From Candidatus Omnitrophota bacterium (GTDB lineage Bacteria > Omnitrophota > Gorgyraeia > Zapsychrales > JANLHA01): DNA of 11,665 nt. Under the pieces are notes generated by a model. It made no database searches, had not been told where the DNA came from, and was given only the letters and a program-made list of their open reading frames with translations. Below, piece after piece: positions 2,297 to 4,342 of the stretch. The stretch's first letter is position 1, and each line of letters opens with the position of its first letter. The translations under genes and the position numbers were made by a program. The DNA is taken from positions 1-11,665 of the forward strand of contig JANLHA010000058.1 in the NCBI GenBank assembly GCA_024653845.1, in the 5' to 3' direction.

Positions 2297-3502
2297 TTAT
2301 TGGGGCGCTGGCTCCGCCGGAACGACCAACTTCCCCTTTTGATCATACTCTTTGATATCAATAATTTGCCCCTGAGCATAAGTTTCCACCTGCTCCAGGC
2401 TTCCATCCTCACGATAAAATTTTATAGGTCCATCCAACTTCCCATCAATGTAATATCCTTCTTCTTTCAACTTTCCGTTTTCATAATAATAGTAAAAGCG
2501 ATCTTGAGGCACTCCCGAACGCACCTCTCCATCCTCCTGCAGCTGGCCGTTCTCATAATACTTTTTGACCTGTCCACGGATTTGTCCACGATAATACGTA
2601 ATCTCGGCCTGAGGATTTCCATTGGGATAATACTGAATCATCTTGCCGTCCAATTGATCGTCGATAAACTTGCCCTGGTTAGATAAAATACCACTTGGAA
2701 AATATTTCTTAAATTCGCCATTTCTCTTCCCATTCTGATAATTCACCTCTGCTTCCAACTGTCCATCTTGAGCATAACTTTTTTTCAGACCATGGAGCTG
2801 ATCGTTCAAATAAAATTCTTCTGTTTTCACAGCGCCATTTTCATAATACGTTTTAACCGGCCCTTGCAAAACGTCGTCGACATATTCTTGGGTTGCGATC
2901 AACGTTCCTTTTTCGTCAAATTTCTTGGATGGACCATTCTTTCGATTGTGATGGTACGTCGCCTCTTCTTGCACATAGCCTAACGGATTATGAATGAGAA
3001 CCGTCCCTATTTTCGAACCATTCACATAATTGCCCTCCATCAAAAGATATCCGTCTTTATGATATTCCTTAAAGGGACCATTGAGAACACCGTTCTGATA
3101 AGTCTTCTCAGATAACGATCGCCCCAACTCATCGTATTCTTTAACAACTCCTTGAAGTTGGCCATTTTCATATTGCTCCTCACGCATCACTTGACCATTG
3201 CGATAATAAAGAAAACTTGGACCATGCAAAGAATCTTTGACATACGTTCTAAGCCAACGTAACTGCCCCGTAACATACCGCGCTTCTCTCTTGCCTGTAA
3301 ATCGTGAATCTACCACCTGGACCGGTTTTTCTTTGACCTGCTCGACTCCACCAAGATAAACTTTTACCTCTGGCTTTTCTCCGCCTTCAGGAATTTCCTG
3401 AACCTCCGTCCCCCCAAGCTGAGCAAATGTCCATGGACAACAGATCAGAGTCAAAATTATCGCAACACTCAAAAAAGCTATTTTTGATAATTTCCGTCTC
3501 AT
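2297..3502 (-). CDS. Secreted MORN-repeat (YwqK-type) protein
   Basis: 401 residues, starting with ATG at 3502 behind an AAGGAGGAAGGA region. Residues 1-27 form a type I signal peptide: basic MRRKLSK, hydrophobic core, and a likely cut after TFA. No good lipobox is present. From about residue 85 to 385 the protein is a run of about 12-13 repeats of roughly 23 residues, of the form YYENGxLxxEGxYxxGKLDG. These are MORN_2 repeats, which databases often label 'toxin-antitoxin system YwqK family antitoxin'. That label is a family name and not evidence of an antitoxin here. A periplasmic or surface beta-repeat scaffold is more likely. The last residues (LVVPAEPAPQ) are a Pro-rich tail. It begins 22 bases after smpB and ends 22 bases before the ssrA -35, so it is probably co-transcribed with smpB. 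A link to trans-translation is not shown. Confidence 0.85.
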   Translation of the reverse strand: MRRKLSKIAFLSVAIILTLICCPWTFAQLGGTEVQEIPEGGEKPEVKVYLGGVEQVKEKPVQVVDSRFTGKREARYVTGQLRWLRTYVKDSLHGPSFLYYRNGQVMREEQYENGQLQGVVKEYDELGRSLSEKTYQNGVLNGPFKEYHKDGYLLMEGNYVNGSKIGTVLIHNPLGYVQEEATYHHNRKNGPSKKFDEKGTLIATQEYVDDVLQGPVKTYYENGAVKTEEFYLNDQLHGLKKSYAQDGQLEAEVNYQNGKRNGEFKKYFPSGILSNQGKFIDDQLDGKMIQYYPNGNPQAEITYYRGQIRGQVKKYYENGQLQEDGEVRSGVPQDRFYYYYENGKLKEEGYYIDGKLDGPIKFYREDGSLEQVETYAQGQIIDIKEYDQKGKLVVPAEPAPQ

Positions 3503-3524: not shown

Positions 3525-3986
3525 TTAATTCTTTTTGTAACTTCTTGAAATACGTTTCAATGCCCGGTCAATGGTGCGCTTCTTAATGTCTTCCCGTTTA
3601 TCAAAAAGCTTTTTGCCTCGACCCAACGCCAATTCAACTTTGAGAATTCCGCGTGAATTGAAATAAACCTTTGTTGGAATGAGCGTCATTCCTTTCGTAC
3701 TCACATAACCGTTGATCTTCTCAATCTCTTTCCGATGCAAGAGAAGTTTGCGAATCCGGTCCGGCTCATCATTCATGTAGCTGGCTTGCCGATAAGGATT
3801 GATATGGAGGTTATGCAAAAAAACCTCTTTCTCCTCGATCCGCGCGAAACTGTCAGCAAAATTCACCTCACCGGCCCGAACCGACTTGACTTCACCACCC
3901 GTCAACACAATTCCGCACTCCCATTTGTGAGTCAGCACAAAATTGTGGTAGGCTTTCTTGTTAACCGCTATCGTCTTCGCTTCCAT
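3525..3986 (-). CDS. smpB: SsrA-binding protein SmpB
   Basis: 153 residues, the usual length. SmpB binds the tRNA-like domain of tmRNA and carries Ala-tmRNA to stalled ribosomes. Family hallmarks run through the whole protein: KKAYHNF near the N-terminus, then WECGIVLTGGEVKSVRAGE, NFADSFARI, VFLHNLHINPY, RKLLLHRKEIEKI, TLIPTKVYF, and KVELALGRGKKLFDKRE near residues 115-132. The basic C-terminal tail (IKKRTIDRALKRISRSYKKN) is the part that enters the mRNA channel in known SmpB. The start at 3986 matches the family N-terminus. No Shine-Dalgarno precedes it, and an extended -10 sits so close that transcription should begin at or next to the ATG. Its partner ssrA lies about 1.3 kb downstream on the same strand, beyond the MORN gene. 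Confidence 0.97.
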   Translation of the reverse strand: MEAKTIAVNKKAYHNFVLTHKWECGIVLTGGEVKSVRAGEVNFADSFARIEEKEVFLHNLHINPYRQASYMNDEPDRIRKLLLHRKEIEKINGYVSTKGMTLIPTKVYFNSRGILKVELALGRGKKLFDKREDIKKRTIDRALKRISRSYKKN

Positions 3987-4048: not shown

Positions 4049-4077
4049 TTGACAGGGCTAAAGTTTGTGGTTATATT
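4049..4077 (+). promoter_or_regulatory. Strong sigma70-type promoter for the tRNA-Leu transcript
   Basis: A perfect -35 TTGACA (4049-4054), 17-base spacer, and -10 TATATT (4072-4077, five of six consensus bases). Transcription would begin near 4084 and run through about 155 nt of structured leader into tRNA-Leu. No open frame with a plausible protein lies downstream, so the tRNA is the likely product. The promoter diverges from that of smpB. Confidence 0.75.
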
Positions 4078-4138: not shown

Positions 4139-4155
4139 TCGAAGTGGCGGCAATT
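4139..4155 (+). repeat. Upstream copy of the tRNA-Leu 5' segment
   Basis: TCGAAGTGGCGG (4139-4150), then C and AATT, repeats TCGAAGTGGCGG-AATT at 4240-4255, which spans bases 2-17 of the tRNA. The copies are 101 bases apart, with one extra C in the upstream copy. The twin hairpins lie between them. It may be a duplicated tRNA fragment left by an insertion, or a sequence kept for alternative pairing. Confidence 0.6.
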
Positions 4156-4200
4156 ACACTTACCTCAAGTCTTTCTTAGAAAGAGTGTAATTCCCGCCAC
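4144..4200 (+). other. Leader hairpin A, long two-part stem
   Basis: GTGGCGG (4144-4150) pairs with CCGCCAC (4194-4200), and AATTACAC (4152-4159) pairs with GTGTAATT (4185-4192). The 15 base pairs are broken only by a C-C mismatch. Inside is a bulge starting TACCTCA and a 6-bp inner hairpin, TCTTTC-TTA-GAAAGA (4170-4184). It lies in the predicted leader of tRNA-Leu. It shares its inner architecture with hairpin B but has a different outer stem. Confidence 0.7.
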
Positions 4201-4251
4201 GAGACATATTTACCTCAGATTTTTCCCAGAAAGAATATGTCGAAGTGGCGG
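4194..4251 (+). other. Leader hairpin B, which pairs into the tRNA-Leu 5' end
   Basis: GACATATT (4203-4210) pairs with AATATGTC (4234-4241), whose last three bases are the first three of the tRNA. The inner part repeats hairpin A: TACCTCA (4211-4217), then TTTTTC-CCA-GAAAGA (4220-4234) with one U-G pair. The stem can be extended by CCGCCAC (4194-4200) with GTGGCGG (4245-4251, tRNA bases 7-13) across a 2x3 internal loop. That extension competes with hairpin A for the same CCGCCAC. Confidence 0.65.
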
Positions 4252-4321
4252 AATTTGGTATACGCGTACGTCTCAGAAGCGTATGGGGAAACCCTTGTGG
4301 GTTCGAGTCCCACCTTCGACA
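4239..4321 (+). tRNA. tRNA-Leu, anticodon CAG
   Basis: An 83-nt class II tRNA. The acceptor stem is GTCGAAG (4239-4245) with CTTCGAC (4314-4320), discriminator A at 4321. The D arm is GCG ... CGC with GGTA in the loop. The anticodon stem is TACGT/GCGTA around the loop CTCAGAA, giving anticodon CAG at 4274-4276 (reads CUG). The long variable arm has a GGG-GAAA-CCC core, and the T arm is GTGGG-TTCGAGT-CCCAC. CCA is not encoded, so it must be added after transcription. The sequence closely follows known bacterial tRNA-Leu up to the D arm (GAAG-TGGCGGAA). Confidence 0.95.
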
Positions 4322-4342
4322 TTTTATTCCTTAAAAGTAGCC

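Follow-up and report, generated by a model that had tools for sequence, protein, structure and literature searches.

The two adjacent hairpins upstream of a tRNA-Leu gene in Candidatus Omnitrophota are interpreted here, with a probability of roughly 0.7, as a tandem pair of copies of a miniature, clade-specific mobile palindromic DNA repeat (similar to REP and double-hairpin elements) that shows a preference for tRNA genes. Members of the repeat family are found within a single order of Candidatus Omnitrophota, at genes for tRNAs and at other sites that encode RNA. The unit is approximately 38-45 bp in length and consists of C, a variable stem of approximately 6-9 bp, the core TTTTCTnnA...TTTTGwGGTA, the complementary stem and A, typically between CNG trinucleotides. 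No description of such a family was found among the matches listed in literature searches on Omnitrophota and tRNA, Omnitrophica palindromes, pre-tRNA leaders and palindromic or tRNA-inserted elements, with subscription papers mostly beyond reach.

The window (the whole stretch of DNA analyzed, 11,665 nt) is one contig of the host assembly, an 87% complete draft whose 395 contigs total 2,074,247 bases. Both hairpins are placed between a promoter-like site and the tRNA gene, in the following arrangement (R2 is a covariance model described below):

4049-4077, + strand: putative sigma-70-like promoter, TTGACA-17-TATATT (consensus scan, 11/12 matches)
4139-4150, + strand: direct (upstream or decoy) copy of the tRNA-Leu 5' end, TCGAAGTGGCGG (from the sequence)
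4152-4192, - strand: hairpin 1, a copy of the repeat family reversed relative to the tRNA (R2 match 4154-4190)
4194-4210, + strand: segment antisense to the tRNA 5' end and the last leader bases, CCGCCACGAGACATATT (from pairing)
4203-4241, - strand: hairpin 2, another family copy, likewise reversed relative to the tRNA (R2 match 4204-4240)
4239-4322, + strand: tRNA-Leu(CAG) (ARAGORN 4238-4322; Rfam RF00005 4239-4321, 55 bits)

The TTGACA-17-TATATT site probably drives the tRNA-Leu transcript; in the 601 bases scanned, two sites of the 11/12-match grade were found and 1.4 were expected. Elsewhere in the window, a tmRNA gene (1834-2221) is close to a gene (3525-3986) that, from its translation, we take to be smpB-like, and a repetitive protein gene (2297-3502) separates the two.

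The coordinates, stems, bulge and 3-base loops given for the twin hairpins in the original prediction, as well as a C-to-T change kept as a U-G pair, all match the sequence. The 6-bp inner hairpin can be seen in the sequence, but the ViennaRNA minimum-energy fold of each element differs there. The outer stems had been described as unrelated. Their sequences do differ, yet stem 2 contains the 5' end of the tRNA and the base of stem 1 contains its copy: because bp 4139-4150 repeat the tRNA start and bp 4194-4210 are antisense to it, stem 2 pairs antisense with tRNA, and stem 1 at its base pairs antisense with copy. By sequence inspection, bp 4194-4210 pair with bp 4234-4251 except for a GA/GAA internal loop, and the right arm of hairpin 2 includes tRNA nucleotides 1-3 (bp 4239-4241). 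Stem 1 can be extended by GTGGCGG (bp 4144-4150) and its complement CCGCCAC (bp 4194-4200), its 17-nt arms (bp 4144-4160 and 4184-4200) being 94% complementary, while stem 2 can be extended by the same CCGCCAC with the GTGGCGG of bp 4245-4251. The 104 nt from 4138 to 4241 fold at -34.1 kcal/mol, compared to -15.0 +/- 2.9 kcal/mol for shuffled sequences (z = -6.7; 0/200 shuffles equal it). The original prediction could assign the motif to no named family; in the window only the tmRNA and the tRNA reach the Rfam gathering score, and at 18 other loci the gathering-score matches were one c-di-GMP-I-GGC riboswitch and one tRNA, with no others. A c-di-GMP-I-GGC riboswitch occupies bp 369-478 of locus L317 (genome G007), approximately 190 nt from a repeat copy.

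Hairpins of three related genomes (G007, G019 and G026) have a common core, of which the window core is the reverse complement. When these genomes were scanned with a core pattern, eight matches were found: five just 5' of a tRNA, one at a contig end and two without a tRNA. Exact cores were rejected as a means of detecting the repeat. The only mismatch-free matches in the window's own genome were the two window copies, allowing up to three mismatches gave 21 matches versus 27 in the reversed control, and in 141 genomes the other matches had two mismatches and were about as rare as in the control. Cores are divergent, and most are in the other orientation. Copies elsewhere were searched for with two covariance models, the first (R1) being built from a hand-picked alignment of 22 hairpins that includes both window sequences and one row with a letter error. 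R1 matched 35 of the 81 genomes of the order at E ≤ 0.05 (approximately 4 by chance if the E-values hold), with 48 matches in G007 and none in G001, G002, G004 or G018. An intact tRNA or tmRNA gene was present within 250 nt, on either strand, at 22 of 27 loci with an R1 match (from 30 fetched as the best match per genome, leaving out L267, L268 and L296), a proximity that is favoured because the R1 training set is largely composed of tRNA-leader hairpins.

The second model, R2, was based on 139 copies collected by R1, none of them from the window's own genome. In 42.8 kb, R2 finds both hairpin 2 (28.6 bits, E-value: 0.0013) and hairpin 1 (24.7 bits, E-value: 0.0084) on the minus strand. Further matches in the same genome (E-values: 2.5e-5 to 0.027) are found beside tRNA-Ala(GGC) (L109), tRNA-Leu(TAG) (L087), tRNA-Ser(GCT) (L116) and tRNA-Ser(GGA) (L115), and at L288. 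Among leaders of the same layout, R2 gave no match at E ≤ 1 for L048 or L078, and its matches in L042, L117 and L095 were weak (E-values: 0.55-0.7). These misses indicate that the layout extends beyond the model, or that some leaders lost or never had the core; leaders with the layout but no R1 or R2 match count against a mobile element. Over 293 genomes of the class, R2 identified four genomes at E ≤ 0.001, each a member of this order; absence outside the order is a weak negative because only 23 candidates per genome were scored among the rows listed and the window's own genome was missed. In viral contigs (13 and at least 80 stretches), only two of 94 pattern matches had a stem of at least 6 bp; these are one sequence found twice, not at a tRNA. 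Covariance-model searches, an approach that had been proposed for the twin motif, recovered more copies in the host and related genomes, beside other tRNAs and with stem covariation.

The copies used for analysis of orientation and pairing comprised 77 from one scan, the best 150 of 200 from another and 12 of 19 R2 rows. Among 88 distinct sampled copies located up to 150 nt 5' of a tRNA, 67 were forward and 21 were reverse; many of the sampled loci were chosen for holding tRNAs and, as near-perfect palindromes can match both strands, the better-ranked strand was retained. Twenty-nine of the 88 extend into the tRNA start (20 forward, 9 reverse). Stem columns were paired in 89.1% of cases versus 59.2% following shuffling, and both stem sides were changed in 367 cells versus 109, in each case with an alignment fitted to the stem. 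G-U pairs made up 16 of 1174 paired positions in the repeat stems (1.4%), compared to 100 of 2340 (4.3%) in the tRNA acceptor stems of the same loci, the latter in a register chosen to maximise pairing. Freedom of orientation and the small number of G-U pairs point to a palindrome acting at the DNA level, although the compensated stems also fit selection at the RNA level. The twin motif had been proposed to be either an RNA structure or a family of mobile palindromic repeats. A purely RNA motif is less likely, given the scarcity of G-U pairs and the fact that most copies have the orientation of which the window cores are the reverse complement, while the second proposal gained support from further copies in the order, in both orientations and away from tRNAs, and from empty sites. 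A point against it is that simple copying of an element would not yield stems that are unlike even in adjacent copies, as they are here.

The flanks of the repeat were compared in 193 copies with a clear register, of which 86 have C.A as the first basal mismatch. In these 86 copies, CNG is mostly present on both sides (CNG|C...A|CNG). The flanking trinucleotides are identical in 30 of the 86, in excess of the 13.1 expected and of the maximum of 23 in 1000 shuffles. They are unlike in the remaining 56, which argues against a mobile element.

Occupied and empty sites were identified at two types of loci. At a tRNA-Val locus in one genus, L367 and L368 have an upstream array that L369 and L370 lack, although Cys and Leu are the upstream neighbours in all four. 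In G047, G053 and G063, a repeated 5'UTR element has empty copies (L366, L363, L350 and L360) and copies with one site occupied (L364 and L307), where CTA is found on either side of an inserted hairpin pair. Other hairpins are found at the same site in L359 and L338 with an imperfect right-hand repeat, which again counts against mobility. The 5'UTR element itself is approximately 95 nt long and lies immediately 5' of start codons in L366, L363, L350, L360 and L309, and also in L318; the genes that follow presumably include map, rplC and purD, which their starts resemble. Within it, GAAAACTCC could form pairs with GGAGTTTTC, which lies at the Shine-Dalgarno site; L318 carries changes on the two pairing sides (GAAAATCCC/GGGATTTTC). 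No Rfam gathering match to this element was obtained in the loci searched (including L307, L309 and L318), and it may be a new regulatory RNA. In G047, a longer repeated composite (roughly 300-400 nt by eye) that contains hairpins and closes with its own palindrome is found at three different places (L298, L299 and L301).

Several tRNA genes are interrupted, and copies of the repeat are also found in tRNA anticodon loops. In both L313 and L272, the interruption follows CAG in the anticodon loop. L313 yields an intact tRNA-Leu gene once a 240-nt insert, which ends in CAG, is taken out, and the insert holds a second tRNA-Leu(CAG). Similarly, removal of two inserts from L272 restores an intact tRNA-Leu gene; the second insert, nearer to the tRNA start, holds a tRNA-Leu(CAG) and has no R2 match. 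In L315, a tRNA-Arg(TCT) is seen by eye in an insert within an apparent tRNA-Arg of the same anticodon; taking out one insert restored no recognisable tRNA, and more inserts were seen by eye. L293 was rejected as a member of this group: its tRNA-Asn, interrupted in the anticodon loop, instead holds what looks, from its motif, like a group I intron.

An arrangement in which a copy of the tRNA start is followed by a hairpin, an antisense segment, a second hairpin and the tRNA is readable in the tRNA-Leu leaders of G001, G002, G004, G018, G020 and G026, where sequences differ and pairing is kept. The strongest rival explanation, though one that we regard as unlikely and favour less than a mobile palindromic element, is built on this layout. 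It proposes a putative cis-acting RNA switch in the pre-tRNA leader that would control tRNA output through attenuator-like alternatives: with the decoy as segment 1, the antisense segment as 2 and the 5' and 3' strands of the tRNA as 3 and 4, pairing of 1:2 and 3:4 would give a folded tRNA while 2:3 would block it. Such a switch would be consistent with the presence of the layout, at similar spacing, at many isotypes besides Leu, and with antisense segments that follow each tRNA and its leader bases. It would also fit the results obtained when each tRNA start was replaced by the start of another isotype (30 controls per tRNA). Of 271 tRNAs examined, the 236 with at least 95 clear upstream bases were scored, and the tRNA's own score exceeded all 30 controls in 22/135 of the first set (4.4 expected) and 19/101 of a set fetched later (3.3 expected), using position limits chosen once the first set had been seen. 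A preceding run with other settings gave 22/140 beating 20 controls (6.7 expected), and the antisense part is weak in some high scorers (L243, L227). At the window locus (L001), the combined copy-plus-antisense score exceeds all 30 other-isotype controls. In this genome as a whole, 7 of the 26 testable tRNA genes (34 found) beat all 30 controls, with the score of an eighth (L109) equalled by 2/30 controls. In G003, from the same family, 0/18 tRNAs beat all controls, which counts against a mobile element. Two fixed antisense-plus-tRNA patterns were rejected as detectors: the first matched 7 of 384 genomes, with true leaders in 4, and the second matched 9 contigs, of which 2 were Omnitrophota leaders. 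By eye, six of the other seven contigs have the match away from tRNAs and one (L102, Anaerolineae) has it at a tRNA without an upstream copy, read as a chance match.

Evidence from folding and distribution is less compatible with the switch. The mispaired and independent folds of the window leader are predicted to be nearly equal (-73.5 versus -71.8 kcal/mol), a point in favour of a switch, but the corresponding differences (-0.5 to -4.1 kcal/mol in four leaders without the element and -1.5 to -6.9 kcal/mol in five with it) fail to separate the two groups. Bistability was thus rejected as proof, and the modelled energies do not support a designed switch. Furthermore, the core is present in both orientations, repeat copies are also found beyond tRNA leaders, tRNAs of the same kinds elsewhere have leaders without the layout (L031, L037, L039 and L044 by eye, as well as L369 and L370), and a search for an intrinsic terminator found none.

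A less probable alternative is that the repeat belongs to the REP/REPIN family and is moved by RAYT transposases. Its short palindromes do occur as singlets, opposite-orientation pairs and clusters, and Y1_Tnp (PF01797) genes are present in 18 of the 24 genomes searched. However, the regular GTAG/CGTC foot of these elements is absent (GTAG/CTAC in 23/193 copies, CGTC/GACG in 4/193), the stems are highly variable, tRNA genes are preferred and no Y1_Tnp match was found in the repeat-bearing genome G019. Least probable is a neutral by-product in which template switching at tRNA 5' ends would make the copies and palindrome correction would keep them perfect with no dedicated element: snap-back synthesis would leave the direct-inverted-direct order seen here, G-U pairs are few and some layout-bearing leaders have no model match, but there is a conserved core at tRNA and non-tRNA sites in both orientations, and CNG flanks are enriched.

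Under the preferred reading of a mobile palindromic repeat, the element would be mobile, now or in the past, at the DNA level; its most likely form would be a folded single strand on which a trans-supplied transposase acts. Insertion at the 5' end of a tRNA gene would leave the promoter adjoining a direct copy of the start of the tRNA. One hairpin copy would come next, then the tRNA start in inverted form, then another hairpin that runs into the intact tRNA, and the tRNA would survive with a longer structured leader. Arrays may grow by duplication between direct tRNA-start copies; those of L266 and L261 are best read as tandem duplication of this type followed by stem turnover. Stems could be kept perfect by templated palindrome repair, by selection for harmless folding in RNA genes, or both. 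Two observations count against this reading: ordinary transposition gives no account of the inverted tRNA-start copy, and no transposase is tied to the family, as Y1_Tnp is found in bearers and non-bearers (11/12 genomes with an R1 match and 7/12 without, the latter group including G001 and G002 although both show the leader layout). We tentatively suggest, at somewhat less than even odds, that the repeat represents a miniature mobile element of a new class, specialised for insertion into tRNA genes, which duplicates the tRNA start directly and inverted so that the gene survives with one hairpin arm made of tRNA sequence, and of which some members carry a same-anticodon replacement tRNA, reshaping tRNA loci across the order.

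The Omnitrophota palindromes have the look of very small mobile DNA elements of a type about which little is known. A mobile repeat with a preference for genes as short and essential as those of tRNAs must have some means of sparing its host, and the direct and inverted tRNA-start copies and replacement-tRNA inserts point to one. With copies in many genomes of the order, sites that are empty, single or arrayed form a natural series, in which two questions can be tested: by what route tiny gene-free palindromes spread, and in what way their stems change yet remain perfectly paired.

Several known systems share features with this repeat. Integrative islands insert in a tRNA gene, with element-side sequence rebuilding its function; the tRNA target and rebuilt function are alike, but the Omnitrophota repeat duplicates the 5' end and, at tens of bp, has no room for an integrase. 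Rickettsia palindromic elements, which insert into genes, are likewise bacterial palindromic repeats. According to PMC3733652, those of R. conorii end in CGTC, unlike the feet of 189/193 Omnitrophota copies, where CGTC/GACG is absent and where tRNA loci are prominent. REP/REPIN elements, as described in PMC3733652 and PMC3116915, are 20-40 bp palindromes with GTAG or CGTC feet that occur as singlets, inverted pairs and clusters, have alternative complementary stem residues and are proposed to be mobilised by a transposase. The Omnitrophota repeat resembles these in size, hairpins and clustering, and differs in its lack of a regular foot of this kind, its tRNA preference, its tRNA-start arms and its CNG flanks. 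G-U pairs are scarce in its stems, whereas G-T pairing is often observed in REP palindromes according to PMC3733652. With regard to inverted doublets, forward-reverse pairs are seen at the 5'UTR sites, but both window copies share one orientation. Mitochondrial double-hairpin elements are, according to PMC2800124, small single or double hairpin repeats found in intergenic regions and within RNA genes, and the Omnitrophota repeat similarly forms variable-stem hairpins at intergenic and RNA-gene sites. The hairpin elements of Allomyces are without flanking duplications according to the same paper, in contrast to the excess of matching flanking trinucleotides identified here. The Omnitrophota repeat further differs from double-hairpin elements in that it resides in bacterial rather than mitochondrial genomes and in that some of its inserts hold whole tRNA genes.
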